NCBI GenBank assembly: GCA_017620455.1
Contig: JAFZQK010000018.1
Span: 1-17,770 of the forward strand
Source: Clostridia bacterium
Lineage (GTDB): Bacteria; Bacillota_A; Clostridia; Christensenellales; Aristaeellaceae
Direction: 5' to 3'
Length of the DNA: 17,770 bases
Shown here: in pieces, positions 1,675 through 17,219 of the stretch
Layout of the letters: every line of letters starts with the position of its first letter
Position numbering within the stretch: the first letter of the stretch is position 1
The notes under the pieces: generated by a model
What the model was told of the DNA's origin: nothing
Databases searched by the model: none
The model's input: only the letters and a program-made list of their open reading frames with translations
Position numbers and translations under genes: made by a program

Positions 1675-1708
1675 GGCATGCCGCCTCCTTTTCTGTGCCC
1701 GATGCGTC

Positions 1709-2629: not shown

Positions 2630-3249
2630 TGGCCGCCGCCGCCCTGGTATCCGGGGCGATCTACGGGTGGCTGCTTTCCTTCCGGGTGCGGGCCAGCCGC
2701 CGCTTCTTCGTATCCTGCGCCCTGCTGCCCTGCGTGGTGGGCACGGTGATCACCTTCGTCAGCGGCAGCATCGGCGCCGGGGTGGCCTTCGGCGGGGCCC
2801 TGGCCCTGACCCGCTTCCGCAGCGCCCAGGCCAGCGCCGACGAAATGGCCGGGGTGCTCATCGCCATGGGGGCCGGGGTGGCCTTCGGCATGGGCTATGT
2901 GGGCTACGGCGCGGCGATCCTGCTGGGGCTGGGGCTGGTGTTCCTGGCCCTCAGCGCCCTGCCCGTCTTCGAGCACAAAGCGATGGCGGAGGAAAAGCTG
3001 CTGCGCGTCACCGTGCCCGAATCCATGGAATTCACTGACGCGTTTTCGGACGTATTTGCCCAATATCTCCTCTCTGCGGAAAACTGCGGCGTCAAAACCA
3101 CGGGAATGGGCAGCATGTTCCGCCTGTCCTACCGCATCCGGATGAAGGCCCCCGCCCGGGAAAAGGCCTTCCTGGACGAGCTCCGCACCCGGAACGGCAA
3201 TCTGGAAATTTCCCTGACCCCCTGGGCGGAGCCCCAGATCACGCTCTGA
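2578..3249 (+). CDS. DUF4956 membrane protein, partner of the VTC protein
   Basis: A 223-residue DUF4956 protein of unknown biochemical role. Hydrophobic segments lie at about residues 12-34, 44-62, 64-80, 90-105 and 108-128, followed by a soluble ~85-residue C-terminal domain. The glycine-rich GAGVAFGGALALTRFRSA segment and the following GMGYVGYGAA are typical of the family. The ATG at 2578 was chosen because GGAAAGGAG precedes it at good spacing; the same frame stays open further upstream but without a credible start. The gene lies inside the end of the VTC gene, so translation is probably coupled. An intrinsic terminator follows 20 bases after the stop, making this a two-gene operon. By context it may form a membrane platform or channel for the VTC enzyme; this is inference. 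Confidence 0.88.
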   Translation: MFDSIFTSSITASQFFLMAAAALVSGAIYGWLLSFRVRASRRFFVSCALLPCVVGTVITFVSGSIGAGVAFGGALALTRFRSAQASADEMAGVLIAMGAGVAFGMGYVGYGAAILLGLGLVFLALSALPVFEHKAMAEEKLLRVTVPESMEFTDAFSDVFAQYLLSAENCGVKTTGMGSMFRLSYRIRMKAPAREKAFLDELRTRNGNLEISLTPWAEPQITL

Positions 3250-3269
3250 CCCCGGAAAATCCCCCGCGT

Positions 3270-3299
3270 GCCCCTGCCGCCCGTCCGGCAGGGGCTTTT
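3270..3299 (+). terminator. intrinsic terminator after VTC-DUF4956
   Basis: Perfect 9-bp stem GCCCCTGCC (3270-3278) and GGCAGGGGC (3287-3295) with an 8-base loop, followed by TTTTATA. It separates the VTC operon from the pyrophosphatase gene. Confidence 0.85.
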
Positions 3300-3360
3300 A
3301 TAAAACCCAAATATTCCCCCGATTTCTCCGGATTTCGTTCGCTTTTTGCCCTTTCCGCTA

Positions 3361-3389
3361 TTGACGGGGCCCGGGGCGGAATATATAAT
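3361..3389 (+). promoter_or_regulatory. promoter of the membrane pyrophosphatase gene
   Basis: TTGACG (3361-3366), a 17-base spacer and TATAAT (3384-3389). The transcript would carry a leader of about 75 bases. That leader can form a hairpin (CGGCGCG, loop AAG, CGTGCCG), itself flanked by CGGGG and CCCCG. No known riboswitch was recognised in it. Confidence 0.82.
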
Positions 3390-3469
3390 AGGTAAGAAAT
3401 CGGGGAAACGGCGCGAAGCGTGCCGGAAGCCCCGGGATCCTCACAATACGGGATGGGAGGGCGCTCCTT

Positions 3470-5626
3470 ATGCTTTGGTATATCCTGGTCCTGGGCGTGG
3501 TAGCCCTGGGTATCGCCTATGTGGCGTACAACTACGCGCGCATCCGCAAAATGCCGGAGGGCACGCGGGAAATGGCCGAAATGGCGGGGATCATCCGGTC
3601 CGGCGCCAATACCTTCATGAAAACCGAATACCGCACCATCGTGATCGTGGTGGTCCTGCTGGCGGCGGTGTTCAGCCTGTTCGTGGAAGCCACCAGCGGC
3701 ATCACGTTCCTCTTCGGCGCGCTGATGAGCTCCTGCGCCTGCGTGGTGGGCATGAAAAGCGCCACCTACGCCAACGTCCGCACCGCCAACCGCGCCCGGG
3801 AAACCAAGTCCATCGGCGAAACGGTAAAGGTGGCCCTCTGCGGTGGCAGCATTTCCGGCCTGTGCGTGCAGGGCCTGGGCCTGCTGGGCATGGTGACCAT
3901 CCTGATGATCTTCGGCAGCGTACGCCACGACGTGCTGGGCGGCGGGCTGATCACCACCCTGGAAGGGGTCAACCCCACCATCATGCGCATTTCCACCTAC
4001 TCCCTGGGCTGCTCCCTGGTGGCCATGTTCAACCGCGTGGCCGGCGGCAACTACACCAAGGCGGCAGACATTTCCGCCGACATCCTGGCGAAAGTGCGCA
4101 ACGACCTGCCGGAGGACGATTCCCGGGTGCCCAACGTGATCGCGGACTTTATCGGCGACAACGTCAACGACATCGCCGGCAACTGCTCCGACCTGCTGGA
4201 ATCCTTCGTGGCCACCATTTCCGCCGCGCTGATGATCGCCGTGATCCTGTTCCAGCAGTATGAGATCAACATCGCCGAGAATGTAAAGCAGGCCCTGGAA
4301 AACGTGTTCAGCGGCACCATCCTCTATCCCGTGCTGCTGGCGGGCGTGGGCCTGCTCAGCTGCGTGCTGGGCCTGTTCTATGCCGACCGGAAAAAGATGG
4401 GCGATAACCCCTCCCGGGAACTGAACCTGGCCACCTGGATCTCCGCCGGCCTCACCATCGTGCTGGGCTTCGGCGCAGCGGCCATCTGCTTTGCCAATAC
4501 GGATGCCGCCGTGCTGCGGGAAACCTACAAATGGTCCGCCGGCTGGGCTTCCCCCTGGATCTGCGCCGTGCTGGGGATCTTAAGCGGCGTGGCCATCGGC
4601 TCCATCACCGAGTATTACACCTCCACCGATTATAAGCCCACCCGCAAGCTGGCCGAAATGGCCCCGGAGGGCGAGGCTTTCGTGGTCACCAAGGGCGACG
4701 CCGTGGGCTCCCGCAGCGTGCTGCTGCCCGTGCTGGTGATCGGCATCGCGCTGTTCGTTTCCGGCAAGCTGGCGGGCATCTACGGCGTGGCCGTGGCCGC
4801 GCTGGGCATGCTGGCCTTCGTGGGCGCCACGGTGTCCATCGACGCCTTCGGCCCCATCGCCGACAACGCCGGCGGCCTGGCGGAAAGCTGCCATCTGGAG
4901 AGCGACGTGCGCGTGATCACCGATAAGCTGGACGCCGTGGGCAATACCACCGCCGCCGTGGGCAAGGGCTTCGCCATCGGCTCCGCCGCCTTCGCCACGG
5001 TGTCCCTCATCGTTTCCTACGTGGGCAACTTCACCAGGGCCGGGGCGGAAATGACGCTGAATATCGCCTCCTTCGTGGTGGTGGCCGGCGCCATCATCGG
5101 CGGCGCCCTGGTGGAATACTTCTCCGCCATGCTCACCGACAACACCATCGAATCCGCCAAGCTCATGGCCGACGAGGGCGACAAGCAGCTGACCCCCGAG
5201 GTCCTTTCCGGCGAAAAAGCCCCGGACTACAACCGCATGATCGCCATTGCCGCCCGGCAGGCGCTGAAAAAGATGCTGGTGCCCTCCGTGCTGGCCATGG
5301 CGATCCCCGTGATCGGCGGCTTCCTCTTCGGCGTGGAATTCGTGGGCGGCCTGCTCATCGGCGCCACCATCGTGGCCATCCCCCGGGCCATTTTCATGGG
5401 CAACTCCGGCGGCGCGTTCGACAACGCGAAAAAGTACATCGAATCCGGCGCGCTGAAAGGCTACGGCAAGGGCTCCCACGCCCATAAGGCCGCCGTCACC
5501 GGCGATACCATCGGCGACACCCGCAAGGACGTGGTGGGCGTGGCCCTGGATATCTTCATCAAGACCATGTCCACCGTGGCCAACACCCTGGTCAGCGTGT
5601 TCAAAAATATTACGCTGATCCGGTAA
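3470..5626 (+). CDS. hppA: membrane-bound ion-translocating pyrophosphatase (divergent, K+-dependent type)
   Basis: A 718-residue polytopic enzyme that couples PPi hydrolysis to pumping of H+ and/or Na+ across the membrane. Recognisable motifs: YTKAADISADILAK (residues 195-208), FIGDNVNDIAGNCSDLLES (227-245), DAFGPIADNAGG, GNTTAAVGKG (491-500), GNSGGAFDNAKKYIE and HKAAVTGDTIGDTRKD near the C-terminus. Ala in GNTTAA, where K+-independent enzymes have Lys, indicates K+ dependence. The acidic metal-PPi ligands are kept, but several near-invariant positions differ: DVGADLVGK is DISADILAK, the GMGAD type is GNCSD, and the gate Arg of the AFRGG motif is Cys124. Glu244 occupies the usual gate-glutamate region, which alone does not separate Na+ from H+ pumps. 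The start ATG follows GGGAGGG by 8 bases. The gene has its own promoter and terminator. The family is certain; ion specificity is not. Confidence 0.95.
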   Translation: MLWYILVLGVVALGIAYVAYNYARIRKMPEGTREMAEMAGIIRSGANTFMKTEYRTIVIVVVLLAAVFSLFVEATSGITFLFGALMSSCACVVGMKSATYANVRTANRARETKSIGETVKVALCGGSISGLCVQGLGLLGMVTILMIFGSVRHDVLGGGLITTLEGVNPTIMRISTYSLGCSLVAMFNRVAGGNYTKAADISADILAKVRNDLPEDDSRVPNVIADFIGDNVNDIAGNCSDLLESFVATISAALMIAVILFQQYEINIAENVKQALENVFSGTILYPVLLAGVGLLSCVLGLFYADRKKMGDNPSRELNLATWISAGLTIVLGFGAAAICFANTDAAVLRETYKWSAGWASPWICAVLGILSGVAIGSITEYYTSTDYKPTRKLAEMAPEGEAFVVTKGDAVGSRSVLLPVLVIGIALFVSGKLAGIYGVAVAALGMLAFVGATVSIDAFGPIADNAGGLAESCHLESDVRVITDKLDAVGNTTAAVGKGFAIGSAAFATVSLIVSYVGNFTRAGAEMTLNIASFVVVAGAIIGGALVEYFSAMLTDNTIESAKLMADEGDKQLTPEVLSGEKAPDYNRMIAIAARQALKKMLVPSVLAMAIPVIGGFLFGVEFVGGLLIGATIVAIPRAIFMGNSGGAFDNAKKYIESGALKGYGKGSHAHKAAVTGDTIGDTRKDVVGVALDIFIKTMSTVANTLVSVFKNITLIR

Positions 5627-5667
5627 CGGCCGCCTGTCCGGCGGCAGGCGCCGGCTTTCCATCGCAC

Positions 5668-5713
5668 AAAAAAGCGGCGCGTTTTTCCTCCCCTTCGGAA
5701 GAAAGACGCGCCG
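5668..5713. terminator. bidirectional terminator between convergent genes
   Basis: Stem CGGCGCGT (5675-5682) and ACGCGCCG (5706-5713), with further partial pairing inside the long loop. On the minus strand it is followed by a six-T run (5668-5673), a good terminator for the thioredoxin gene. On the plus strand the tail is weaker (TTAATTCTTT). A GC-rich hairpin at about 5629-5655 directly after the pyrophosphatase stop may contribute. Confidence 0.75.
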
Positions 5714-5729
5714 TTAATTCTTTGCCCGT

Positions 5730-6668
5730 TTATTCGTCGATTTCCGCCCAGTCCAGGGCTTCGCCGGCAAAGTAATCGTTCGCCAGCGTCCGCAGCCCGT
5801 TTTCATCCCGGAACAGAATCATCATCATCGTCATTTCCCCTTCGCCGGTGCACAGGCCAAGAATCAGATAATCCGTCTGATCGGGAATTTCCGCATGAAA
5901 ATGATACGCGCCGTCCGCGCTGTCGTACAGGCTGTCCAGATCCTTCCGATCGCCGGTATCGGTTTCAACGTAGTCGTCCTTGGCTGCGCCCTCCAGCAGC
6001 CGGAAAATGAAATCCGCTTCCTTTCCGTCCACGATCCAGGCGGCGTCCACCACGTTCTGCCCCCCATAGGTAAGGCTGATTTTCCGGGCGCCCTCCACGC
6101 CGGCGTCCCACACCCGGGCCGGGGGAAGCTCATCCAGCACCCGGGAGGCCGTGTAGTCGTCCCCCAGGAAAGCGTCCATCAGCCGCAGGAAAGCGTCGGC
6201 GGAGGTGATGGCGCCGCTGTCCATGAAGCAGGCGTTGCCGAACCGGTCCACGATGACGGTGGTGGGGATGTAATAAACCTGCACATAGTCGCTCAGCGCT
6301 TCGCCCTCGTCCCGGCCCATGGGCAGGGAAAGGCCCAGATTGTTCTTGAACTCCGCAATCGCCTCCAGGGTGTCTTCCCCCTCGATGGAGAGGGCGATCA
6401 CCGCCACGTCGTCGGCCCGCTGGGCGTACGCTTCGTCCAGGTAGGGGAATTCCGCCTGGCAGGGCGGGCACCAGGTGGCCCACAGGTTGATGAGCACCGC
6501 CTTTTTCTCCTTCAGCGCTTCGGACAGGGTAAAGGTGTTCCCCTCCGTATCGACGGCGGTGAAGTCCGGGAAGGGCTGGCCCAGGATGGCGGCGTTTTCC
6601 GCCCGGACGGGCAGCAGCGCCAGGCACAGCAGCAGCGCCAGGCTCAGGGCGATTCCTTTTTTCAGCAT
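5730..6668 (-). CDS. secreted TlpA/ResA-like thioredoxin-fold protein with extra C-terminal domain
   Basis: A 312-residue exported thiol-disulfide protein. An N-terminal signal peptide (MLKK then a hydrophobic run, probable cleavage after VRA near residue 23) is followed by a thioredoxin-fold domain of the AhpC/TSA-Redoxin type. The active site is WCPPC (Cys67 and Cys70 in LWATWCPPC), with the cis-proline in YIPTT and the strand VIVDRFGN. No lipobox cysteine is visible, so it is probably secreted rather than lipid-anchored. Residues ~190-312 form an acidic C-terminal region that was not recognised. It likely reduces cell-surface or exported substrates. The start ATG lies 9 bases after AGGAGG. 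It is 49 bases downstream of the RNA methyltransferase gene with no terminator between, so the two are probably co-transcribed. The electron donor is not encoded nearby. Confidence 0.88.
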   Translation of the reverse strand: MLKKGIALSLALLLCLALLPVRAENAAILGQPFPDFTAVDTEGNTFTLSEALKEKKAVLINLWATWCPPCQAEFPYLDEAYAQRADDVAVIALSIEGEDTLEAIAEFKNNLGLSLPMGRDEGEALSDYVQVYYIPTTVIVDRFGNACFMDSGAITSADAFLRLMDAFLGDDYTASRVLDELPPARVWDAGVEGARKISLTYGGQNVVDAAWIVDGKEADFIFRLLEGAAKDDYVETDTGDRKDLDSLYDSADGAYHFHAEIPDQTDYLILGLCTGEGEMTMMMILFRDENGLRTLANDYFAGEALDWAEIDE

Positions 6669-6717
6669 GATCTTATCCTCCTGTATGATTGATCCCCGCT
6701 CCGGCGGGAAGGATGCT

Positions 6718-7527
6718 TTACCGGGGCCGCAGCTGCCAGAAGGCGACGGCGGAGGCGGCGGCCACATTCAGGGAGTCGATCCCCGCCGCCATGGGGATGC
6801 GCACGATATCGTCGCACTGATCCAGCACGCCGTCCGTCAGGCCCGTGTCCTCCGTGCCCAGGCACACCGCCAGCCGCTGCTCTTTGGGAAGGGACGGGTC
6901 GTCCAAGGTCAGACAGTTTTCCCTGAGCGCCAGGCCCAGCACCCGGAAGCCCTCGTGTTTCATCAGCGGGATCGCGCAGTCGTCCCCCGTCCGGGCCCAG
7001 GGCACCAGGAACACCGCGCCCATGCACACCCGCACCGCCCGGCGATGCAGCGGATCGCAACAATCAGGGGACAAAAGGATGCCTTCGCACCCCAGCGCCG
7101 CCGCCGAACGGAAAATCGCCCCCACGTTGGAGGGCTCGGTGATCCCTTCCAGCAGGGCGATGCGGCGCCTGCCCCGGATCACTTCCTCCGGCTGCCGCAG
7201 GGGCGGCCTTCGGAAGGCGCCCAGCACCCAGGACCTTTGCAGCCGGAACCCCGTCAGGGCGGCGAGGGTATCGTCGTCCCCGGTATATACGGGCACGTCC
7301 GGGCACCTGGCGATCACCGCCGCCCCCGGGCCGTCCACGAATTTCCGCCGCATCAGCAGGGAAACCGGCGCGCAGCCGGCCTCCAGCGCCGACAGCACCA
7401 CCTTGGGCCCTTCGGCGATAAACAGCCCCTTTTCCGGCTCCTGGCGGCTGCGGAGCTGATGATCCGTCAGGTGAAAGAATATCTCCGCCCCGGGAAATGA
7501 AAGATCCCGGATTTCCACGACCGGCAC
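6718..7527 (-). CDS. TrmH/SpoU-family RNA 2'-O-methyltransferase
   Basis: A 269-residue SPOUT-class enzyme that transfers methyl from SAM to a ribose 2'-OH of rRNA or tRNA. Residues ~1-115 resemble the SpoU substrate-binding domain. The catalytic trefoil-knot domain follows with motif 1 EPSNVGAIFRSAAALG (Asn134, Arg140), motif 2 CLGTEDTGL (222-230) and motif 3 IPMAAGIDSLNVAAASA (244-260). All catalytic residues are present. The start is GTG, 9 bases after GAGGAGG. Only ~23 bases separate it from the terminator of the upstream nucleotidyltransferase gene, so it has no room for its own promoter and must rely on read-through. The RNA target cannot be assigned. Confidence 0.9.
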   Translation of the reverse strand: MPVVEIRDLSFPGAEIFFHLTDHQLRSRQEPEKGLFIAEGPKVVLSALEAGCAPVSLLMRRKFVDGPGAAVIARCPDVPVYTGDDDTLAALTGFRLQRSWVLGAFRRPPLRQPEEVIRGRRRIALLEGITEPSNVGAIFRSAAALGCEGILLSPDCCDPLHRRAVRVCMGAVFLVPWARTGDDCAIPLMKHEGFRVLGLALRENCLTLDDPSLPKEQRLAVCLGTEDTGLTDGVLDQCDDIVRIPMAAGIDSLNVAAASAVAFWQLRPR

Positions 7528-7550
7528 GCCCGTTTTCCTCCTCTCGCCGG

Positions 7551-7582
7551 AAAAAGAAAAGGGAAGGCAGCCGGGCCTTCCC
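7551..7582 (-). terminator. intrinsic terminator between nucleotidyltransferase and RNA methyltransferase genes
   Basis: On the minus strand a perfect 8-bp stem GGGAAGGC/GCCTTCCC (7575-7582 and 7561-7568) with a 6-base loop, followed by TTTTCTTTTT (7551-7560). It is a strong terminator, yet sits just upstream of the next gene's ribosome binding site, so it should set a lower expression level for the downstream pair. Confidence 0.85.
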
Positions 7583-7594
7583 TGCCGAAAACGC

Positions 7595-8524
7595 TTACAG
7601 ATCGGAAAACAGATCCGTCCGGTACACGTCCCGGGCGATCAGATCCCGGAAGCTGTCCACCACGAAGGGCTTGTCTTCCTTGTACGTCACGCCGAACCAG
7701 GCGTCCGGGGTGTCCAGCACCTGTACGGTGACCTTTTTTTCTTTGAGCAGCTGCCCGATATAGCTGGGGATCAGGAATTCGGCCTTCAGGGGGTTTTCCT
7801 TTGCCTTCGTTTCCAGGAATTCCACGAACCCCTCCTCCAGCAGCTTCATGAACGCGGGGCTGAGGCCCCAGAAATTCATGGACGCATACGCTTTGGGGTC
7901 GATGGCCCGGCCGGCCGCTTCCGCGCCGATCTGCCCGTCCTTCACGGTTTTGACGATATCGGAGGTTTCCACCACTTCGGTGAGGAAGCCTTTTTCGTCC
8001 ACCCGGCACACGCCCCGGGTCACCGCGCCGTTGTCCGACAGGGTGTTTTTGAGAATGAAGCCCGCCATGCCGAATTCCCCGTCGCCCCGGGGAACGGACA
8101 GGAAATCGTGCAGCTTGAAAAACGCCTCCCGGCCGTAGTAATCGTCCGCGTTGATCACGGCGAAGGGCTCCCGGATCACATCCCGGGCCGCCAGCACCGC
8201 CTGGCCCGTGCCCCAGGGCTTGCCGCGGCCCTCCGGCACGGCATAGCCCGCCGGCAGATCGTGCAGATCCTGAAAGCCGTAGGCCACCTCCACGCCGCAG
8301 CGGGCGCAGATCTTTTCGATCCGGCTGCCGATGATCTCCCGGAAATCCGTTTCGATATCCCGGCGGATCACGAACACGATCTTGCCAAACCCGGCCCGGA
8401 TGGCGTCATGAATAGAATAATCCATGATGATCTCGCCGCAGGGGCCCACCTTTTCCAGCTGCTTGATGCCGCCGCCAAACCGGGAGCCGATCCCCGCAGC
8501 CATAATGAGCAGCGCCGTTTTCAC
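7595..8524 (-). CDS. sugar-phosphate nucleotidyltransferase (GT-A fold)
   Basis: A 309-residue nucleotidyltransferase related to enzymes that make NDP-sugars from NTP and sugar-1-phosphate. The N-terminal signature MAAGIGSRFGGGIKQ (residues 8-22) binds the nucleotide. GKPWGTGQAV (101-110) and INADDYYG (124-131) supply the base-binding and metal-binding segments. The C-terminal ~100 residues lack an obvious hexapeptide (left-handed beta-helix) repeat. The start is GTG, 8 bases after GGGGAGG. It follows the LCP gene by 24 bases, so the two are an operon. The pairing suggests supply of an activated sugar or alditol for a wall glycopolymer; this is inference, and the substrate is unknown. Confidence 0.85.
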   Translation of the reverse strand: MKTALLIMAAGIGSRFGGGIKQLEKVGPCGEIIMDYSIHDAIRAGFGKIVFVIRRDIETDFREIIGSRIEKICARCGVEVAYGFQDLHDLPAGYAVPEGRGKPWGTGQAVLAARDVIREPFAVINADDYYGREAFFKLHDFLSVPRGDGEFGMAGFILKNTLSDNGAVTRGVCRVDEKGFLTEVVETSDIVKTVKDGQIGAEAAGRAIDPKAYASMNFWGLSPAFMKLLEEGFVEFLETKAKENPLKAEFLIPSYIGQLLKEKKVTVQVLDTPDAWFGVTYKEDKPFVVDSFRDLIARDVYRTDLFSDL

Positions 8525-8548
8525 TGTGCTTACCTCCCCGTTTTTTTC

Positions 8549-9961
8549 TCAGCGCCAGTCGATCTGATGATACTGATTGATGGCGTAATCCTGCTCCCAG
8601 AAATGTCCGTGGGTACAGTTCAGGCTCTCCGTATAGCCAAACGCATCGGCCAGGGCCTGCAGGGAACGCTCGTAATTCTTCCGCAGCGTGGTGGGGATGA
8701 CGGCCCGGTAATCCCCGTCCTCCACCTTGGCGGACGCGTTTTCAAACGCCTCCAGGAAGTCGTTGTATATCATTTCAAAGTCCGCCAGCGCGGCCTTCTG
8801 GGCGGGGGTGGGGCTCGCCACATTGCCGACGAAATCCATCACGAACTGCCCCTTGCGCAGATGCTTGACGTAATCGAACCCGTCGTTGGCGTAACGGTTC
8901 TGGGTGATGTCCGCCGCTTCCGTCACGTTGCCGTTTCCCCGGAACAGCCATCTTACGTACCGCTGGCTGATGTAGGGCAGGGGCGCGGCTTCGATGCCGA
9001 AGACCTCTTTCAGCACCCGGATGCGGTTGTCCTGATCCAGGATGCGGAACTGGAAATCCCCGCAGGTGGTATGGGTGCCGTAATCGCCGGACAGCACGTA
9101 GGAGCCGATCTCCCGGCTGCTCAGGCCCTGCACCGCCTGATACAGGGCGGTCAGATCGCCGCCCTCGATATTGGTGTAGAAATTGATGTTGCTGCCGTTG
9201 GCGGTCTCCCACAGGGTATTGACCAGATCCCAGTTCCCCCACAGCTTCTGAATGATGGCGGAAATCATCTTCCGGCCCCGCTCGGTGCGGTTCTGGTCGT
9301 TGCTGTCGATGTTCTTGCGGGCCCGGACGTAGTCCATGACGCCGATCCCGTCCAGATGCTGCCGGCCCGCCGAATAGCCGCGGCCGCTGGTGCCGGTATA
9401 GCTGACCTCCAGATCGAAATCCACGCCCCCCAGGACGGTGGCCAGCTTCGTCAATGCGCCCATATCCACGAACACGTAGGCGTCGATCTTCACACCGCCC
9501 AGCAGCCAGCGCACCGTATCCCGGGTGCGGCTGATGCCTTCCCGCACGGAGGACGCGCAGTTGAACGCGTCGTTCAGCTTGTACACGCCGTACACGCCGG
9601 GCACGTACACCATGGTATCCCGGGGAATGGAGATCAGATTGATTTTTCCTTTGGTTTTGTTGACGGACAGCACCATGACGGCGTCGGTATGATAAGCCAT
9701 GATCTCAGGCAGGCCCTGATCCCTGGCCTTGGCGGCTTTGCTGCCGCTGGCGCTGGGCTTGCCCTGGCCGCTGGTGCCGTCTTCATATTCGTTGCCCAGC
9801 AGCAGCACGTTATACACGTCGTCCGCGGCGTATGCGGGCGTCAGCTCCTGGGCGTCCACGATGGAAAGGGAGCTTTTATTTATTTCCGCCGCCCCGGGAA
9901 ATACGATCCCCAGGATCAGCAGCGCGGCCAGCGCCGCCGTTATCAATCGCTTGCGTGTCAT
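8549..9961 (-). CDS. LytR-CpsA-Psr (LCP) family cell-wall protein
   Basis: A 470-residue membrane-anchored LCP protein. The family transfers glycopolymers such as wall teichoic acid or capsule from lipid carriers to peptidoglycan outside the membrane. A single N-terminal transmembrane segment (about residues 7-24) precedes the LCP domain with TDAVMVLSV (92-100), SIPRDTMVYVPG (111-122), YVRARK (211-216) and NRTERGRKMI (224-233), whose Asp and Arg residues bind the pyrophosphate. A Ser/Gly/Lys-rich insert lies at ~60-82. Residues ~330-470 form a long C-terminal extension with a Trp/Tyr/His-rich end that was not recognised. The start was placed at the ATG 8 bases after GAGGAGG; an in-frame ATG 90 bases upstream has no ribosome binding site. 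It has its own promoter and heads an operon with the nucleotidyltransferase. Confidence 0.92.
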   Translation of the reverse strand: MTRKRLITAALAALLILGIVFPGAAEINKSSLSIVDAQELTPAYAADDVYNVLLLGNEYEDGTSGQGKPSASGSKAAKARDQGLPEIMAYHTDAVMVLSVNKTKGKINLISIPRDTMVYVPGVYGVYKLNDAFNCASSVREGISRTRDTVRWLLGGVKIDAYVFVDMGALTKLATVLGGVDFDLEVSYTGTSGRGYSAGRQHLDGIGVMDYVRARKNIDSNDQNRTERGRKMISAIIQKLWGNWDLVNTLWETANGSNINFYTNIEGGDLTALYQAVQGLSSREIGSYVLSGDYGTHTTCGDFQFRILDQDNRIRVLKEVFGIEAAPLPYISQRYVRWLFRGNGNVTEAADITQNRYANDGFDYVKHLRKGQFVMDFVGNVASPTPAQKAALADFEMIYNDFLEAFENASAKVEDGDYRAVIPTTLRKNYERSLQALADAFGYTESLNCTHGHFWEQDYAINQYHQIDWR

Positions 9962-10110
9962 TGATTCTTCCTCCTCGCTTCCGGTTTTCCCACAGGCGTG
10001 CCGCGGCGCCGGATGCCCCTCCTGCAGCCGTCTTCGCCGTTTTTCGGTCATGAACCGCGCATCCGTTTTGAATGCATGGAACGGAAATGTGCGCAGCGGC
10101 TGTTGGCCTG

Positions 10111-10139
10111 ATTATACCACACATGCCCCGGCGCCGCAA
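10111..10139 (-). promoter_or_regulatory. promoter of the LCP-nucleotidyltransferase operon
   Basis: Minus strand TTGCGG (10134-10139), a 17-base spacer ending in TGTGG and TATAAT (10111-10116). The leader before the LCP start would be about 140 bases. No terminator separates it from prfA, so read-through from prfA is also possible. Confidence 0.75.
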
Positions 10140-10166
10140 TATAAGGAATTGTAAATCCTCCCCGCG

Positions 10167-11231
10167 TCAGACCGTCAGGCCCTTCAGCTTCTCCGCCTGC
10201 TCCTTCAGGATCAGGGCGTCGATGATCGCGTCCAGATCCCCGTCCATGACGGCGTCGATCTGGTACAGCGTCAGGTTGGCCCGGTGATCCGTCACCCGCC
10301 CCTGGGGAAAATTGTAGGTGCGGATGCGCTCGTTGCGCTCCCCGGTGCCCACCTGGGCCTTCCGGTCCCGGGCGTAGGCCGCGTCCTTTTCGGAGCGGTA
10401 CAGATCGTACAGCCGGGATTTGAGCACCTTCATGGCCTTTTCCTTGTTTTTCAGCTGGCTCTTCTCATCCTGGCAGGTGACCACCAGGCCGGAGGGCAGG
10501 TGGGTGATGCGCACGGCGGAATCGGTGCGGTTGATGTACTGCCCGCCGTGGCCGGAGGCCCGGTAGGTGTCGATGCGCAGGTCCTCGGAGCGGATCTCCA
10601 CTTCCACATCCTCCGCCTCCGGCAGCACCGCCACCGTGGCCGTGGAGGTGTGGATGCGGCCTCCGGCCTCGGTGACGGGCACCCGCTGGATGCGGTGCAC
10701 GCCGGATTCGTACTTCATCCGGGCAAACGCCCCCGCGCCGGAAAGGGTGAACACCGCTTCCTTTACGCCCCCCAGCTCCGTGTCCGTCACGTCCACCGTT
10801 TCAAAGCGGTAGCCCCTGCGCTCGGCGTAGCGCTGGTACATCCGCATCAGCAGCGCCGCGAACAGCGCGGCCTCCTCGCCCCCGGCTCCGGGGCGGATCT
10901 CCATCACCACGCTGCGGCCGTCGTCCGGGTCCCGGGGAATGAGGAAAAGCCGCAGGGCTTCCCGCTCCTTCTCCTCCCGGGGAAGCAGTGCCTTCAGCTC
11001 CTCCTGCGCGATTTCCGCCATTTCCGGGTCCTTCAGCATATCCTTCGCGCCGTCGATTTCCCGCAGAAGCTGCCTGTACGCCCGCCAGGCGTTCACCGCG
11101 GGCTCCAGCTGCCCGATCTCCCGCAGCAGCTTCTGATACCGGGGCACGTCGGAAAGGATCTCCGGCTGGGCCGCGGCGATCTGCATTTCCTCATAGCGGC
11201 CTTCCATGCTTTCAAACTGGGCCTCCATCAT
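10167..11231 (-). CDS. prfA: peptide chain release factor 1
   Basis: A 354-residue class I release factor that reads UAA and UAG and triggers peptidyl-tRNA hydrolysis on the ribosome. The RF1-specific tripeptide is PVT (residues 185-187, in [18 protein letters not shown]), not the SPF of RF2. The catalytic GGQ motif is at 229-231. The loop reads [14 protein letters not shown] where most bacterial factors have SGAGGQHVN. The acidic PGAGGEEA segment (114-121) and overall length are normal. The start is the first of two tandem ATGs. It overlaps the prmC stop codon as ATGA, which implies translational coupling with the methyltransferase that modifies Gln231. GGAGG lies 10 bases upstream of the start, inside prmC. 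Confidence 0.97.
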
Positions 11232-12064
11232 GGCGCTCCGCCCTCCTTTTTCACCGCGCTGATCCCCCGGGGCAGGCCCGAAAGATCACGGAACACGGCG
11301 ATCTCCTGAAATTTCTCCTCCAGCAGCCGTTCCACCGCCCGGCTTTCCCCGTCGCCGGTTTCCAGGATCAGCCGGCCGCCGTCCGTCAGGTGCTCCGGCG
11401 CTTCCCGGGCGATGCGGCGGTAAAAATCCAGCCCGTCCGCCCCGGCGAACAGCGCCAGCGCGGGCTCCTTTTCCACTTCGGACTGCAATTTGCCCCGCAG
11501 CCCGTCGGGGATGTAGGGCGGATTGCTGACGATCAGGCCGAACCGCTCCCCGGCAACGGGCGCAAACAGATCGCCCTGCAGGAAGCGCACCTCCGCGCCC
11601 AGCCTTTCCGCGTTCTCCCGGGCCAGGGAAAGGGCGTCCCCGCTCACGTCCGACGCCGTGATCTCCGCCCCGGGGCACAGCTTTTTGAGCGAAACGGCCA
11701 GGGCGCCGGTGCCGGTGCACAGATCCAGCGCCCGCATGCCGGGCCGAAGATAACGGAGCGCCTCCCCGCACACTGCCTCCGTGTCCTGCCGGGGGATCAG
11801 CGCCCGGGGATCGCACCGGAAGGAAAAGCCCATGAAGCTTTGCTCCCCCAGGATGTACTGCAAGGGCTCCCTTTCCTGCCGCCGGGCCACCAGCCCCGCA
11901 TACGCCGCGCGCTGCCCGTCCGTCAGCTCCCTGCCCTTGTCCAGCAGCATGGGCAGCCTGGATACGCCCAGTACCGCCGCCAGCAGGTATTCCGCGTCCA
12001 GCCGGGGCTCCGGGATCTCCCCGAGTTCTTCTTCCGCCCATTTCAGGACTTCCCGTACCGTCAT
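11228..12064 (-). CDS. prmC: release factor glutamine N5-methyltransferase
   Basis: A 278-residue SAM-dependent enzyme that methylates the glutamine of the GGQ motif in release factors RF1 and RF2. An N-terminal helical domain (to ~60) is followed by the PrmC signature [17 protein letters not shown] (66-82), LIPRQDTE (89-96), the SAM-binding motif [10 protein letters not shown] (114-123) and the catalytic NPPY (181-184, in VSNPPYIP). The start ATG was chosen because AAAGGAG lies 6-7 bases upstream; the in-frame extension upstream would cross a long hairpin. The gene overlaps prfA, its substrate's gene, by four bases. No convincing promoter is visible just upstream, so transcription may arrive through the partial terminator region after the DUF1385 gene. 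Confidence 0.96.
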
Positions 12065-12091
12065 GTTTTGCTCCTTTAGCGGGGGGATGCC

Positions 12092-12131
12092 GGGGGAAAC
12101 CGCTCTTTGGAGGCCAAAGAGCGGTTCCCCC
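12092..12131 (-). repeat. long hairpin in the prmC leader
   Basis: Near-perfect inverted repeat: 19 bases at 12092-12110 pair with 18 at 12114-12131 around a 3-base loop, with one unpaired A. It ends 27 bases before the prmC start and has no T-run on either strand. It is probably an RNA structure in the leader rather than a terminator. Confidence 0.7.
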
Positions 12132-12200
12132 GGGCCCCCTTCCGAGAAAGCCGGAACTGTTTTTTCAGATTGCTGTTTTTTATCCGGTAGGATTTCGGAT

Positions 12201-12236
12201 AATAAAAGCCTCCCCAAACCGGCTTTCTTGGGGAGG
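12201..12236 (-). terminator. intrinsic terminator after the DUF1385 gene
   Basis: On the minus strand a perfect 9-bp stem CCTCCCCAA/TTGGGGAGG (12228-12236 and 12209-12217) with a 10-base loop, followed by CTTTTATT. Confidence 0.72.
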
Positions 12237-12238
12237 AC

Positions 12239-12281
12239 GCGGGAGGGGAACTCTTTCCCCCGGAAAGAATCCCCCTCCCGC
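12239..12281 (-). repeat. GC-rich hairpin directly after the DUF1385 gene
   Basis: Ten-base perfect arms GCGGGAGGGG (12239-12248) and CCCCTCCCGC (12272-12281), with an inner CTTTCC/GGAAAG stem. It begins ~10 bases after the DUF1385 stop codon and sits in tandem with the terminator that follows. It may protect the mRNA 3' end or assist termination. Confidence 0.6.
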
Positions 12282-12290
12282 CAAAAACCG

Positions 12291-13337
12291 CTATTTTTCT
12301 TCCGCTTTTTCTTCTTCCTTATGCAGCACGATCCAGCCCTCTTCGGTCTTTTCTCCTTCGGGCAGGCCGTGGAGGGCGGCGTTCATGGAGGCGATGGCCA
12401 CCTCCAGCTGGCTGTCGCTGGGCTCCCGGGTGGTGAGGCGCTGCATCTGCAGCCCCGGCCAACGCAGGGCGCGGGTCAGGGGATTTTCGGCGTATGCCAC
12501 GCCCTTGAGGATCTCATAGCTGATGCCCGCCACGCAGGGCAGCAGGATCAGCCGGCTCAGCACCCGCCACAGGTAATGATTTCCCAGGTTGAACCCCGTC
12601 AGCTTCCACACCAGCACGTCGATGACGGAATAAAACAGGATGGACAGAATGAACGTCAGCAGCAGAAAGCTGGTGCCGCACCGGGGATGCAGCCGGGAAA
12701 ACTGCCGGGCGTTCTGCGGCGTCAGGGGCAGATCGTGCTCGTGGCAGAACACCGTTTTATGCTCCGAGCCGTGGTACTGGAAGGTCTTTTTCATGTCCGG
12801 CACCTGGCCCACCAGGGCGATGTATCCGATGAGCAGCAGCGTCCGCACCAGGCCGCTGACCAGGTTTTTCAGCAGCAGCGTCCAGGACGCGGAATCCTTG
12901 GGCGTATCGGGGAACAGCTTGATCACCAGGTTGGGCAGAAGCACGAACAGGCCCACGCTCATGGCCACCGCCAGCACGATGGCGGTGCCCATCACCACCT
13001 TGTCCACGCTTTTCCCCAGCTTTTTCGCCAGCCATTTTTCAAATTTGCTGGGCTCTTCCTCTTCCTCGCCGGACATTTTCATGCTGTCCTCCAGCACCCG
13101 CATGCCCAGCCCCAGCATCTGCACCATGCTCACCGACCCGCGGATGAAGGGCCAGCCCATCCATTTGTGCTTTTTGGCCGGGCTGACGTAGGGCTCCCTT
13201 TTCACCACGATGTCGCCGTTGGGCCGGCGCACGGCCACGGCCACGGCGTCGGGGCTTTTCATCATCACGCCGTCCAGTACGGCCTGGCCGCCGATATCCG
13301 CCCGGGGGCACTGGGCGTTTGCTTTTCCCTTCTTCAT
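12291..13337 (-). CDS. DUF1385 (YqhQ-like) membrane protein
   Basis: A 348-residue protein of the DUF1385 family, common in Clostridia near prmC-prfA and rpmE; its function is unknown. Family marks: IGGQAVLDGVMMKSPD (residues 15-30), RRPNGDIVVKRE, PFIRGSVSM (63-71), YHGSEHKTVFCHE (188-200) and LHPRCGTSF (216-224). The last two carry conserved His, Cys and Glu that could bind a metal. Membrane segments are at about 115-140, 157-177, 222-242 and 258-275. An acidic EEEEE patch (91-95) and a charged C-terminal tail flank them. The start ATG follows TTGGAG by 6 bases; longer in-frame starts run into the upstream zinc-ribbon gene. The upstream zinc-ribbon gene lies 37 bases away and may share its transcript. 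Confidence 0.9.
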   Translation of the reverse strand: MKKGKANAQCPRADIGGQAVLDGVMMKSPDAVAVAVRRPNGDIVVKREPYVSPAKKHKWMGWPFIRGSVSMVQMLGLGMRVLEDSMKMSGEEEEEPSKFEKWLAKKLGKSVDKVVMGTAIVLAVAMSVGLFVLLPNLVIKLFPDTPKDSASWTLLLKNLVSGLVRTLLLIGYIALVGQVPDMKKTFQYHGSEHKTVFCHEHDLPLTPQNARQFSRLHPRCGTSFLLLTFILSILFYSVIDVLVWKLTGFNLGNHYLWRVLSRLILLPCVAGISYEILKGVAYAENPLTRALRWPGLQMQRLTTREPSDSQLEVAIASMNAALHGLPEGEKTEEGWIVLHKEEEKAEEK

Positions 13338-13374
13338 AGCTTTCTCCAATTCAGTAAAATGTTCCCGTCCCGCC

Positions 13375-13863
13375 TCAACAGCGGATCTGCTCCATGATGG
13401 CGTCCGCATCTGCTTTGCCGTGCCCGTCATAGGCGCATCTTTCCGCGATCCAGGCCCAATCCAGGGCATGGTACGCTTCGAAATTCGCGGCGGCTTTCTT
13501 CAGCGCCTGAACATTCCGGGAAATCAGGATGGGCGATTTGTACGCCGCCTCCAGCACCCGCGCCGCTTCCCGATGGCGCAGATAGCGATACCGGCCGAAG
13601 ATGTTTTTCTGATCCCTTTTCTTAAACCCGTAATGTCCGCACTGCGGGCAGATGCATTTCATGCCTTCCAGCTTATCGCTGACCCGCTCGGTCCCGGCGT
13701 CCATGGCTTTCAGCTCATGCTCCACCACATGCCGGAGCTGATCCACCGCGTCGTCCCGCAGCTCCTTGCGCTCGTAGAACGGCGTCGATGAATAATACTC
13801 ATACCATGTGCATACGGCGTAAGCCGTTGGCGCCACGGTGCCTTTCCCGCATTCCGGGCACAT
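13375..13863 (-). CDS. zinc-ribbon protein of unknown function
   Basis: A hypothetical protein of 162 residues. It begins MCPECGKG and has a second CxxC pair in CICPQCGHYGF, so the two pairs probably form one zinc ribbon separated by ~60 residues. Between them is a Tyr-rich segment (WYEYYSSTPFYERKELRDD) and a helical stretch. The C-terminal ~80 residues are basic then helical (RYRYLRHREAARVLEAAYKS, later AANFEAYHALDWAWIAERC). No catalytic motif was seen. The ATG at 13863 is favoured because zinc ribbons often begin this way, but it has no good ribosome binding site, and the frame stays open upstream into rpmE. A better-placed ATG at 13924 is in another frame. The family was not recognised. 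Confidence 0.6.
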   Translation of the reverse strand: MCPECGKGTVAPTAYAVCTWYEYYSSTPFYERKELRDDAVDQLRHVVEHELKAMDAGTERVSDKLEGMKCICPQCGHYGFKKRDQKNIFGRYRYLRHREAARVLEAAYKSPILISRNVQALKKAAANFEAYHALDWAWIAERCAYDGHGKADADAIMEQIRC

Positions 13864-13960
13864 TATACAGGCACCAGACCGGGATTTCCGCGGTGATTCT
13901 GTTTCTGTGGCGCGAATTATCCATGCCGTTTTCCTCTTTTCGGGCCATACCCACGGATGA

Positions 13961-14003
13961 TAAAGAAAAGCAGCGCGGGCCTGTGCAGGGCCGTGCTGCT
14001 TTT
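13961..14003 (-). terminator. intrinsic terminator after rpmE
   Basis: Arms AAAAGCAGC (13966-13974) and GCTGCTTTT (13995-14003) around an inner GGCC/GGCC pairing. On the minus strand the stem is followed by CTTTA after its own TTTT arm. It is a symmetric, possibly bidirectional terminator, starting 5 bases after the rpmE stop. Confidence 0.75.
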
Positions 14004-14302: not shown

Positions 14303-14360
14303 GGGTTTGGGGGAAAAAACTTGCCGGGACGTAGGAAAAGCAGGGTTTTTGCCCGGCATA

Positions 14361-14458
14361 CCACCTCATCCAGCCCTTCGGGCCACCTTCCCCTCCAGGG
14401 GAAGGCATAAAAGGCTTCCCCTGGAGGGGAAGCTCCGCCGAAGGCGGTGATGAGGTGG
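14361..14458. repeat. palindromic MITE/REP-like element A
   Basis: A 98-base element with perfect 10-bp ends CCACCTCATC (14361-14370) and GATGAGGTGG (14449-14458). Inside are two reverse-complementary copies of an 18-base near-palindrome, CTTCCCCTCCAGGGGAAG (14388-14405) and its complement (14415-14432), plus small hairpins GCCC-TTC-GGGC and CCGCC-GAA-GGCGG. The whole can fold into a branched cruciform. It contains no credible gene. Similar sequence is, to my knowledge, frequent between genes of gut clostridia; copy number here was not testable. Confidence 0.8.
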
Positions 14459-14508
14459 AACGCCGCGAACTGAGTCTGCTTGTTTTTTCAAAACATCATT
14501 CAATCTGC

Positions 14509-14614
14509 CGTAGGGGCGGATATCATCCGCCCGGGCGAAACATGTTGATTTTCCTTGCTTTCCAGCGCTTTTCGTGTGCCCGGCTTTTTCGGGCGGATGA
14601 TATCCGCCCCTACG
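14509..14614. repeat. palindromic MITE/REP-like element B
   Basis: Perfect 25-bp inverted repeats at 14509-14533 and 14590-14614 (core GGGCGGATGATATCCGCCCC) flank a 56-base T-rich middle. There is no transposase. Translations across it give the meaningless peptides seen in many spurious clostridial gene calls (RGGYHPP, RADDIRPY). The flanks 14459-14508 and 14615-14704 show nothing recognisable. Confidence 0.85.
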
Positions 14615-14704: not shown

Positions 14705-15025
14705 TTATTTCTTCTGTTCCGCGGCTGTCAGCGCCTGATAACGGCGCATCAGTTTGGCGACGCAGCTACTTTCCGTGGTGGTTTTGACGGACATTCCATA
14801 CGCTTCCATCACGGCGCGGTCATTCTGCCGGTGGGCGGTGCGCAGCTCCGGCGGCATGGTCAGCTCGTCGTACAGATCAGCCAGGGAAGCATCGGGATAC
14901 AGCGCCCGGGCATCCAGAATGGCCTGGGCGGTCTGTTCAATGCGGGCCTTCTGCGCATCGGTGGGCGTGGGCCAGGGAAAGTTGTTATAGACGATATCTT
15001 TTGCATAACGATAATCGCTCTTTAC
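14705..15025 (-). pseudogene. 3' remnant of a large DNA methyltransferase gene
   Basis: About 106 C-terminal residues starting near KSDYRYAKDIVYNNFPWPTP and ending in a stop at 14705. From memory, this resembles the end of ~900-1000-residue class I SAM-dependent DNA methyltransferases (MmeI/type IIG-like) found on integrative elements. Following marks include LDARALYPDASLADLYDEL and MPPELRTAHRQNDRAVMEAYG. Beyond 15025 the open frame only mirrors a phage gene on the other strand, so the methyltransferase catalytic core is missing. The matching N-terminal piece lies at 16947-17219 in the same orientation. It is not expected to be functional. Confidence 0.8.
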
Positions 15026-15531
15026 GGCAGGCTGGTGCGCCTGTCCCAGGACGCGACCGAGGGCAAGGACGTCTCCCAGGAGCAGCTGACCGTGACCGAT
15101 GCCCTGGACACGATGGTGAAGTGGTTCTGCATCCTGTTCAACAACCAGTTCACCCCGGATGAGGTCTACGACAACTATCCCGCCGACCGCCTGATGCACG
15201 ACATCGCTCTGGCGCTGATGGCCGTACAGACCCAGACTACAGAGGTGCTGGATTCTTTCCCTACGATTCCGGTGGTGCAGGAAGCGGAACAGATTCTGGC
15301 GGAGGCGGAGAATCAGGAAGTGAAGACCGCGAAGGCACCCTGACACTGCCGGAATACATCTATGCCACTTACAACGAACTTCTGAAAGCCGGGTGGCGCA
15401 TGACGGAATTGGATGCCATGGACATGCTGGGCTTTCTTCGCCTGCGGGCTTGGGATGCCCGGCGGGAGCAGGAAAAGAAGAAACCCCGGCAGCGCTTCAT
15501 TGATGAAGTCTGGCCGGGGGTGAAACCATGA
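15026..15531 (+). pseudogene. 5'-truncated phage tail assembly chaperone (gpG/gpGT-like) with -1 frameshift
   Basis: The 3' portion of a siphophage tail assembly chaperone pair. The first frame (from about GRLVRLSQDATEGKDVS) runs through DALDTMVKWFCILFNNQFT and MHDIALALMAVQTQTTEVLDSF to a TGA at 15341-15343. A second frame, -1 relative to it, continues to 15531. After a Gly/Ser/Asp linker it encodes LPEYIYATYNELLKAGW, MTELDAMDMLGFLRLRAWDA and RQRFIDEVWPGVKP, which look like the T domain of gpGT. The heptamer TTTCCCT (15256-15262) sits in the correct phase for a -1 slip. Upstream of 15026 the sequence is methyltransferase DNA on the other strand, so the gene has lost its start. Confidence 0.7.
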
Positions 15532-15575
15532 TTTTCCAACTTCCGGGTTATCGTGTCAATACAACACTAAAATAG
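15528..15575 (+). other. short coupled reading frame after the tail chaperone, probably truncated
   Basis: An ATG overlaps the chaperone stop (ATGA) and is preceded by GGGGGTG. It reads MIFQLPGYRVNTTLK and stops just before the end of the S66 peptidase gene on the other strand. It may be the first codons of a phage gene cut by insertion of the peptidase gene, or chance. Confidence 0.3.
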
Positions 15576-15578
15576 TCA

Positions 15579-16607
15579 TTAGTCAATGAATCGGATGATC
15601 TGCTTTTCAGCATCGACAACTGAATTAACACCGAAGGGCATAATGCAGCGTGGCATTGCATGTCCTATATTTAGGTTAAAAACAATTGGGAGTTCTGGCT
15701 GATCAATCACATTAACCAGCAACTGTTTATACTCCTCTGCATAGGTCTCATCCATGGGTTTTCCAGCCAGTACGCCGCTTATGGTGTTGAATATACCCGT
15801 TGCCTTCAGATACTCCAATGCATTTCGATACTTTTCAGGAGTTGGCTTCTCTTCGCTGGATTCCAGCAACAGGATACGTCCACGCCAGTCTTCTGCATCC
15901 GGGAACAAATGATACTTTTGGCATAATACTGGCATGTCTGCATACCTTTCCCCATCAAAAAAATCATGTATTGAGTCGATGCATCCGCCAAGTATTGGAC
16001 CGGAGAAAACAGGCGGCCCCTGTAACAATTCGAATCCCTGGTTGGGAAGTGCAGGTAGCTGCTTACCCACCTGTTCTGGCGAAAAGCATTCCCTTTCTCC
16101 GTACCAAACATTGCTCGGAGTAATCTCCCTGATCTTCCCGGTAGTGATCAGTTCCTCAAAAAATTTCTGTGTGTATGGGTGCATCTGTGGACCCAGCTCG
16201 CAGATGTCTGCAAAAAATGCCTGACCGTAGAAGGTTTTCAGCCCAACTTTATGCAGCATGAAGTGATTGATTGTGGTGTCAGAGAAACCAAGGAATACTT
16301 TATCCGTGACTGCATCTACCAATTCATTGTTATCAAATAGATATGGCAGAAGCCGATATGTATCATCCCCACCGGTAGAACACAAGATCATATCTATTTC
16401 AGGATCCCTGAATGCTGCCAGAAGATCTTCTGCCCGTTTTTCCGGGTGATCCCTGACGTAATCAATCCCCATGCGTGCATGTGGCATAAATTTCACATTC
16501 AGTCCGAACCTCTTAAGTCTGCGGAGACCGATCTCCACCTCGAACTGAACAAATGGTTCGCCAACGATCCCGCTTGAAAGGCTGACAATTGCGACATTCC
16601 TGATCAT
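15579..16607 (-). CDS. S66-family LD-carboxypeptidase, MccF-like
   Basis: A 342-residue S66 serine peptidase. The family includes LdcA, which trims murein tetrapeptides, and MccF, which hydrolyses microcin C-type peptide-nucleotides and confers immunity. The catalytic triad is visible: Ser109 in FLGFSDTT, Glu249 in LLLESSEEKP and His316 in NIGHAMPR. STGGDDTYRLLPYL (77-90) and the position of Glu after LLLE favour the MccF side. Length is normal, and no signal peptide is seen, so it is cytoplasmic. The start ATG lies 5 bases after GGAGG. The gene has its own promoter, is visibly AT-richer than its neighbours, and lies antisense between two phage tail gene fragments, which marks it as acquired cargo. 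It is intact. Whether its substrate is a murein peptide or a toxin is inference. Confidence 0.88.
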   Translation of the reverse strand: MIRNVAIVSLSSGIVGEPFVQFEVEIGLRRLKRFGLNVKFMPHARMGIDYVRDHPEKRAEDLLAAFRDPEIDMILCSTGGDDTYRLLPYLFDNNELVDAVTDKVFLGFSDTTINHFMLHKVGLKTFYGQAFFADICELGPQMHPYTQKFFEELITTGKIREITPSNVWYGERECFSPEQVGKQLPALPNQGFELLQGPPVFSGPILGGCIDSIHDFFDGERYADMPVLCQKYHLFPDAEDWRGRILLLESSEEKPTPEKYRNALEYLKATGIFNTISGVLAGKPMDETYAEEYKQLLVNVIDQPELPIVFNLNIGHAMPRCIMPFGVNSVVDAEKQIIRFID

Positions 16608-16687
16608 GGCTTCCTCCAAATACGATCCAGCGATGGTGCGTTGAACAAAAATCCTGTTGTGTTAACTGCGCTTTTCAGCGCCTGCCC

Positions 16688-16716
16688 ATTATACCACTGA
16701 ACCCCTTATCTCGCAA
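16688..16716 (-). promoter_or_regulatory. promoter of the MccF-like peptidase gene
   Basis: Minus strand TTGCGA (16711-16716), a 17-base spacer ending in TGG and TATAAT (16688-16693), leaving a leader of about 75 bases. The leader contains GCGCTGAAAAGCGC, a small hairpin near the expected transcript start. Confidence 0.78.
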
Positions 16717-16736
16717 GAATAAGAAGGTGAAATCTC

Positions 16737-16952
16737 ATGGCTGAAACCCTGGGCGAACTGGTGGTCGCGCTGTCGCTGGACTCCAGCAATTTCTCGCGCA
16801 ATATGCGCTCCATCAATCAGCAGATCAAGGAAGCTGAGTCCACCTTCCGTCTGGCCGGGGCTGGCGTTCAGAACTATGAAAAGACCATCGCGGGCACGGA
16901 AGCCAAGCTGTCCATGCTGGGACAGAAGCTCACCCAGCAGCAGCGGGCCGTC
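16737..16952 (+). pseudogene. 5' fragment of a phage tail tape measure gene
   Basis: The first ~72 residues of a tape measure protein. MAETLGELVVALSLDSSNFSRNMRS is a common N-terminus of siphophage tape measure proteins, followed by a helical, Gln-rich stretch to LGQKLTQQQRAV. The ATG follows AAGGTG by 7 bases. After 16952 the frame runs into antisense methyltransferase sequence and ends at 17075, so the protein is truncated to a small fraction of its usual several hundred to >1000 residues. In siphophages this gene normally directly follows the tail assembly chaperone; here the peptidase gene lies between them. Confidence 0.78.
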
Positions 16953-17219
16953 CGATTGACGGATGGGCTTTTTCATGTCTTTGCCAATGCCCTTCTGCTC
17001 AATCAGCACATGGGTCGCCGGGATATAGCCGTCAATAAAGCTGGTATGGTCAAGATGCACTTGATCTTCAAATGAGATATATTCCGCTGCATGTTCTATG
17101 CCGAAAACATCACTTAACAAAGAAAGCCAAAACTTCTGGCTTTCTCCCTTTTCATATCCTTTGCCCTTCCAGTAATCTGCGAAATGCCTTGCCGCCTCTC
17201 GCTGCTGTACATCGTTCAT
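16947..17219 (-). pseudogene. 5' remnant of the DNA methyltransferase gene
   Basis: The first ~91 residues of the methyltransferase whose end is at 14705-15025. MNDVQQREAARHFADYWKGK, GESQKFWLSLLSDVFG, YISFEDQVHLDHTSFIDGYI and KKPIRQSDG match the N-terminal part of large class I DNA methyltransferases. The ATG follows GGGAGGA at good spacing, and a strong promoter precedes it. From about 16947 the frame only mirrors the tape measure fragment on the other strand and stops at 16689. A stub of ~177 residues could still be made but would lack any catalytic motif. Confidence 0.82.

Follow-up and report, generated by a model that had tools for sequence, protein, structure and literature searches.

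The window analysed here is a stretch of 17,770 nucleotides from a Clostridia bacterium (assembly GCA_017620455.1, contig JAFZQK010000018.1). It holds a minus-strand gene of the MmeI restriction-modification type that has been broken: its two ends abut the outer ends of a piece of phage DNA, and its middle is missing (Table 1). The C-terminal remnant also contains the end of an MmeI_TRD domain, in a match (E 2e-4) that falls short of the cut-off of that model. By eye and from the list of open reading frames, the remaining window carries ordinary host genes, with tRNAs at its right end. The phage piece consists of a pair of tail assembly chaperone frames, a cassette read in the opposite direction and the truncated start of a tape-measure gene, whose open reading frame within the window spans 16737-16952 on the plus strand. 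A preliminary description of this DNA had placed an S66 peptidase gene antisense between tail chaperone and tape measure, and the domain matches and coordinates confirm that arrangement. It had also described the gene as intact, AT-richer than its surroundings and under its own promoter, and this holds as well: the reading frame is uninterrupted from end to end, the GC content is 45.5% in the cassette against 59.3% in the chaperone stub and 58.6% in the tape-measure stub (62.8% in window 1-14000), and the putative promoter agrees with the consensus at 10 of 12 positions. S66 was further called the only intact gene of the island; intact it is, but so is the short gpGT frame.

Table 1 Features of the phage piece and of the broken host gene around it (positions in the window)
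Feature	Position	Strand	Evidence or remark
C-terminal end of broken MmeI-type restriction-modification gene	14705-15022	-	MmeI_C PF20467, E 6e-25
Tail assembly chaperone G (gpG), 5' end missing	15026-15343	+	PF23857, E 2e-8; NF047360, E 8e-8
gpGT frame, 62 aa and stop	15343-15531	+	Left inner edge of the insertion site
Left cassette spacer	15532-15578	no strand	Common to phage contig L124
S66 peptidase, 342 aa, cargo	16607-15579	-	PF02016, E 2e-28; PF17676, E 1e-18
Putative hairpin-forming sequence GCGCTGAAAAGCGC	16668-16681	-	Just past the expected transcript start; read from the sequence
Putative cassette promoter TTGCGA-N17-TATAAT	16716-16688	-	About 20 nt from the tape-measure ATG, directed away from the tape-measure gene
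Tape-measure start, cut off: ribosome site and first ~72 aa	16725-16952	+	Right site edge; phrog_1533, E 1e-14
N-terminal part of broken MmeI-type gene	16953-17219	-	MmeI_N PF20464, E 2e-13

Such a mosaic could in principle be a chimeric metagenome assembly, the more so as the named genome records with the site are mostly metagenome bins, but we regard this as very improbable. The left junction between the MmeI-type gene and the phage DNA is also present in G001, the nearest genome compared, at about 90% DNA identity, and is therefore no artefact of a single assembly; moreover, relics of the same site lie inside the one-contig genome G206 and the two-contig genomes G118 and G157. G001 does not show the cassette, because its contig stops at window position 15342, within the chaperone region, and no S66 match was found in this genome. 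For the right junction the window is the sole instance seen, and phage copies match the window right up to it. A GCCGT microhomology proposed at the right junction was withdrawn because there is no intact MmeI copy to compare there. At the left junction, phage L105 and the MmeI relative L024 have no more than a few bases in common. To the left of the broken gene, window 14338-14481 and 14509-14614 hold two inverted repeats, a long one that is imperfect and a perfect one of 25 bp, in a stretch with many matches elsewhere in G001; they are probably dispersed repeats of the genus.

The empty form of the site is found in genome G016, where chaperone and tape-measure DNA are continuous. Matches to the window stop at 15529 and restart at 16725 but lie 6 bases apart in G016, and hence about 1.2 kb has been inserted in the window. 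The window DNA is 88% identical to the G016 copy in gpG and 94% identical in the tape-measure gene. Among relatives the inner edges of the site are nearly constant and the outer ends of the phage piece vary from place to place; an element with fixed outer ends was ruled out, given that the outer ends are ragged and the inner edges alone are nearly constant. The G016 locus (L059, G016:C102) is itself a reduced prophage, in which we recognize by eye a DNA methylase, a small terminase, a major tail protein, the chaperones and a long tape measure, with no head genes between.

A chaperone scan of IMG/VR gave 126 encoded relatives, the best 80 of which were analysed. Among these 80 loci the gap between gpGT and the tape measure exceeds 500 bp in 27 and stays under 100 bp in 38, the other 15 being not measurable, and the inserts of the 27 occupied loci range from 0.56 to 2.6 kb. 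The gap between gpG and gpGT, by comparison, is 2-59 bp in the 78 loci of the same set that have both genes. Within the 30 closest loci (L104-L133), 18 are occupied, 4 empty and 8 not measurable. Seven of the 27 occupied loci are exact copies, leaving 20 distinct inserts, each with a lower GC content than the phage DNA upstream of it. In 17 of these 20 the longest frame runs antisense; the exceptions (L111, L117 and L141) have no dominant antisense frame. Compared all against all, different inserts share stretches of just 64-86 bp, except for two HicAB inserts (71% over 472 bp). Two Christensenellales phages returned from INPHARED, both filed under 'Ca. Heliusvirales', show the same alternation, PV036454 having two minus-strand genes at the site and PV036419 none.

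The cargo at the site is diverse. It comprises AbiEii and AbiEi (the latter from PADLOC, below the Pfam cut-off), HicB and HicA (the latter below the Pfam cut-off), a protein kinase, two GNATs, a radical SAM protein with a MarR, an AAA/DUF4143 protein and a class I methyltransferase (a Pfam match by way of an identical copy in L060); the other cargo proteins gave no family match. As judged from these sequence comparisons, the junction of gpGT and tape measure is a general cargo site and not one specific to S66. It has the features of a phage accessory or defence hotspot, namely two conserved flanking genes, high turnover between them and some known defence genes. Among the less readily classified inserts, that of L164 (1743-2484) encodes an unnamed 156-aa protein without Pfam or PADLOC match, preceded by short direct repeats in a layout like that of type III toxin-antitoxin systems. 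In L112 (2478-2978, phage) and L063 (7260-7577, chromosomal relic) the cargo has a leader-like sequence, 'LSMDELDxVxGG', which resembles the leaders of double-glycine peptides.

What unrelated cassettes have in common is the edge from which they are read. The shared stretches of 64-86 bp correspond to this promoter edge, by alignment for L115/L129 and by eye for the others. Across 51-60 bp, the DNA around the window promoter matches the equivalent position in L115/L116 (kinase cargo) at 94% identity, that in L129 at 88% and that in L239, whose cargo is VanZ-like by eye, at 94%. An exact 19-mer of the window promoter occurs in three IMG/VR contigs (L115, L116 and L129), in all of them at the cargo site, and a longer promoter pattern occurs in none of the 29 genomes of the genus. 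By eye, three promoter types can be told apart, each common to unrelated cargos, and similar hairpins are seen in other promoter types. Judged as a motif alone, the predicted promoters give a weak to modest signal: the antisense score averages 8.9 of 12 in 30 inserts versus 5.7 in 17 empty sites, and it exceeds that of shuffled sequences (p<=0.05) in 10 of the 30 inserts and in 1 of the 17 empty sites.

The end of the S66 cassette itself is present in a phage contig. Judged by eye and by similarity to L105, the products of L124 (IMGVR_UViG_3300010282_000169) include proteins like portal, protease and capsid together with the two chaperones, and beyond the chaperone pair 158 bp match window 15526-15683 at 98.1%, spanning from gpGT into S66. 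The last 34 residues of the protein are identical to those of the window protein, the coding differences being synonymous, and the gene is then cut by an insertion with a transposase-like frame. These 34 codons are all that was recovered: a complete S66 cassette turned up in no phage contig, a protein-pattern search of IMG/VR for S66 returned nothing and missed the L124 fragment as well, and a protein search of INPHARED gave only relatives of 23-25% identity. The preliminary description had suggested searching phages for an S66 gene between chaperone and tape measure, which yielded the cassette end at the right place but no complete cassette; its counter-proposal, a peptidase inserted in this genome only, is contradicted by that same cassette end.

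A related alternative is that S66 has no connection with the phage and reached the chromosome alone, landing in a phage fragment that had decayed before. The flanks retrieved with its close relatives (L010, L012-L014 and L029-L058) show no match to chaperones or tape-measure start, with tape-measure fragments near S66 in G055 only, and this fits an independent entry, as does the failure of the protein patterns to find S66 in IMG/VR. However, the inner edges in the window are those of the phage cargo site, the promoter is that of other phage cargos and the cassette end in L124 contradicts such an origin, which we consider scarcely credible. The empty sites in relatives, the AT-rich insert with a promoter of its own, the shared cassette end in L124 and the many other cargos at the site together make the interpretation of the S66 gene as a moron, that is, a phage accessory gene, well supported, in a more general form than first claimed. 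As to an own terminator, a further mark of a moron, a simple scan of the minus strand found no terminator-like site behind S66.

Host genomes keep small relics of the site, consisting of cargo and truncated tail stubs, more often than the other phage pieces tested. In 200 genomes of the host family we collected tape-measure and major-tail-protein matches of at least 70% identity and counted the loci that are partial without lying at a contig end. Such loci made up 13 of 19 for the tape measure (3 more cut by a contig end) versus 2 of 21 for the major tail protein (3 more cut by a contig end), an excess with a Fisher p of 0.0002, or 0.001 when the four copies with a cyclodeaminase-like cargo are counted once. 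Likewise, 27 of the 37 named genome loci with a tape-measure start hold at most about 210 residues of the tape measure, three of them touching a contig end. We also compared a 12.4-kb phage region with the 29 genus genomes, scoring 10 candidates per genome. Among the candidates scored there were 44 matches. The 0.93 kb at the cargo site account for 30 of them, although some of these (for example, G018:C78 and G019:C9) may come from more distant prophages that are fuller; the remaining 10.8 kb account for 9, the G016 prophage for 2 and homologues of the cargo for 3. In 28 close phages the region is evenly conserved to position 11,500, and none reached further.

Loci at which both stubs enclose an insert occur in G020, G012, G011 (C39, C63 and a tandem pair in C69), G022 (two), and G017, and among the family genomes in G145, G089 and G180. 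The G020 relic is 98% identical to phage L105 over 1.1 kb, cargo included. A tape-measure stub together with a cargo that is cyclodeaminase-like by eye occurs in the one-contig genome G206, in the two-contig genomes G118 and G157 and in G094; no gpGT stub was found in relics of this type, closed genomes included. In G206 and G118 (L217/L218) the relic and the genes next to it agree at 99.8%, the opposite flank at 86.7%, a contrast that suggests recent movement of the relic. The tandem pair (L065, G011:C69, 3203-4854) consists of a methyltransferase cassette (Pfam) and a nucleotidyltransferase-like one (by eye), separated by a tape-measure stub and then a gpGT stub, and it is flanked by two genes that look by eye like serine recombinases.

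The relics could be ordinary decayed prophages, centred on the cargo site by chance or sampling and with no selection for the cargo. Their ragged outer ends would be expected from decay, some relics show no intact cargo frame (no clear one could be made out by eye in the insert of L221, G145:C88), and the possible origin of some site matches from fuller prophages points the same way. Against this stand the strong excess at the site over the other phage parts tested, the position of the eight relic loci inspected among ordinary host genes such as Lon, GH32 and murG (by eye) and the S66 gene itself, which has a dN of 0.11-0.14 against five chromosomal relatives (dS is saturated). On balance we consider unselected decay unlikely.

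The explanation that we find highly probable is that S66 is one of many interchangeable siphophage cassettes at the junction of gpGT and tape measure, and that the window holds a chromosomal relic of such a phage. Siphophages related to the recorded Christensenellales phages would carry swappable cassettes between these two genes, each made of a backward promoter near the tape-measure start, a short leader and at least one gene in the direction opposite to the tail genes. With an antisense orientation and a promoter of its own, a cassette could be expressed by a lysogen while the late operon is silent, and its cargo may benefit the lysogen. The window relic would then comprise the cassette flanked by chaperone DNA (about 0.5 kb) and tape-measure DNA (0.2 kb), in place of the middle of the MmeI-type gene, and was probably made by illegitimate recombination or decay. 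More tentatively, the site may act as an exchangeable expression platform, in which a few constant antisense promoters at the tape-measure edge serve swappable genes, chromosomal cassettes are banked and the tail stubs provide homology arms for swaps between phage and chromosome or between phages. The cassette DNA of about 98% identity in phages and chromosomes, the promoter edges across unrelated cargos and the tandem pair in L065 are consistent with this idea, which we hold to be possible but somewhat less likely than its contrary.

Parts of this arrangement have precedents. In HK97 an extra gene, gp15, likewise lies between a chaperone pair (gp13/gp14) and the tape measure (gp16) and is annotated as 'moron product' in AF069529; papers that cite the work give it a role in superinfection exclusion. 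However, gp15 is on the strand of the tail genes, whereas cargo of the window type is antisense and highly interchangeable. The antiviral hotspots of P2 and P4 are, in the passages of PMC9122126 that describe them, also small loci of high turnover between two conserved phage genes and include defence genes, but they belong to other phages and other genes, and the cargo at the gpGT-tape measure site is broader, with many proteins lacking a family match; the term 'tape measure' is absent from the main text of that paper. Neither 'moron' nor 'tape measure' occurs in the main text of the 'Ca. Heliusviridae' paper (PMC9226167). We found no published description of a cargo site between chaperone and tape measure in these phages in a literature search outside which most subscription journals lay, and the passages of PMC10884400, PMC9226167, PMC6316719, PMC11318856, PMC9122126, PMC11364771 and PMC7285073 covered by it mention none. 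Given the HK97 and P2/P4 precedents, moron sites and their turnover are known, and what is new here is the antisense orientation, the shared promoters and the chromosomal relics. The site marks a defined place on the map where phages of gut and rumen bacteria that are common but little studied gain and leave accessory genes, abortive-infection and toxin-antitoxin systems among them. Reading the gpGT-tape measure junction across metagenomes would list new candidate defence or fitness genes, and the relics make it possible to examine directly if retention by the host is why cargo outlives its phage.

The function of the S66 enzyme was approached by alignment and phylogeny. The preliminary description took it for a possible MccF-type enzyme that would protect a lysogen against antibiotic peptide-nucleotides. 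MccF, according to passages of PMC7285073, cuts the aspartate-nucleotide amide bond in activated microcin C. The triad of such an enzyme is intact in the alignment (Ser109, Glu249 and His316, counted from Met1). A threonine nucleophile in GGDDT had been considered and was dropped when a better alignment placed the catalytic serine in GFSDTT. The closest solved structure by sequence is PDB 4e94, with 200 of 337 positions identical; its title, 'MccC family protein', is the depositors' name only, and we found no function for it. Like the window protein, MccF of pMccC7-H22 and the S66 protein of pAgK84 belong to the S66 family and have the Ser-Glu-His triad and an extended loop; they are, however, only about 23-24% identical to it and fall in a separate clade. 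In a tree of 45 rows the window protein groups with P0002-P0004, metagenomic proteins 87-91% identical to it, within a starred clade of host-family S66 proteins, and the starred fork (100/98) excludes E. coli MccF and the pAgK84 protein, with long branches that leave the deep forks unsure. The triad agrees with the MccF-type assignment; the position in the tree, outside E. coli MccF and the pAgK84 protein, does not.

The same tree, which included LdcA and MccF references, bears on whether the enzyme is instead a murein-recycling LD-carboxypeptidase (LdcA) or another housekeeping peptidase, not an immunity protein. A firm placement among LdcA enzymes, named at the outset as grounds for abandoning the MccF-type reading, did not emerge, the protein lying in a clade of its own. 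A housekeeping role agrees with the chromosomal location of the close relatives, with the frequency of S66 matches of any kind in the host family (97 of 200 genomes) and with the label 'LdcA involved in peptidoglycan recycling' that one source gives to some close relatives. LdcA in particular is argued against by the score of 34.3 bits with the NCBIfam LdcA model NF008424, for which the cut-off is 378, by the position outside E. coli LdcA in the tree and by the extended loop, which LdcA lacks. We consider the housekeeping role, taken broadly, rather unlikely, and give the same weight to the mechanism that we hold most probable for the enzyme, namely that it is an MccF-like amide hydrolase disarming a toxin of the peptide- or aminoacyl-nucleotide type. 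Cleavage of the MccF kind by the window protein is a putative activity, put forward as a hypothesis from the sequence. No microcin or agrocin genes were seen in the window.

A link between S66 and a GNAT neighbour, as in the microcin plasmid, was considered and judged too weak, being seen in 2 of 30 loci and in the fusions P0010 and P0012. In these two proteins, which are 83% identical to the window protein, an N-terminal GNAT domain is fused to S66. In L232 (G055:C39, 3429-6190) a chromosomal S66 gene is followed by a GNAT gene, and two tape-measure fragments lie about 1.5 kb further on.
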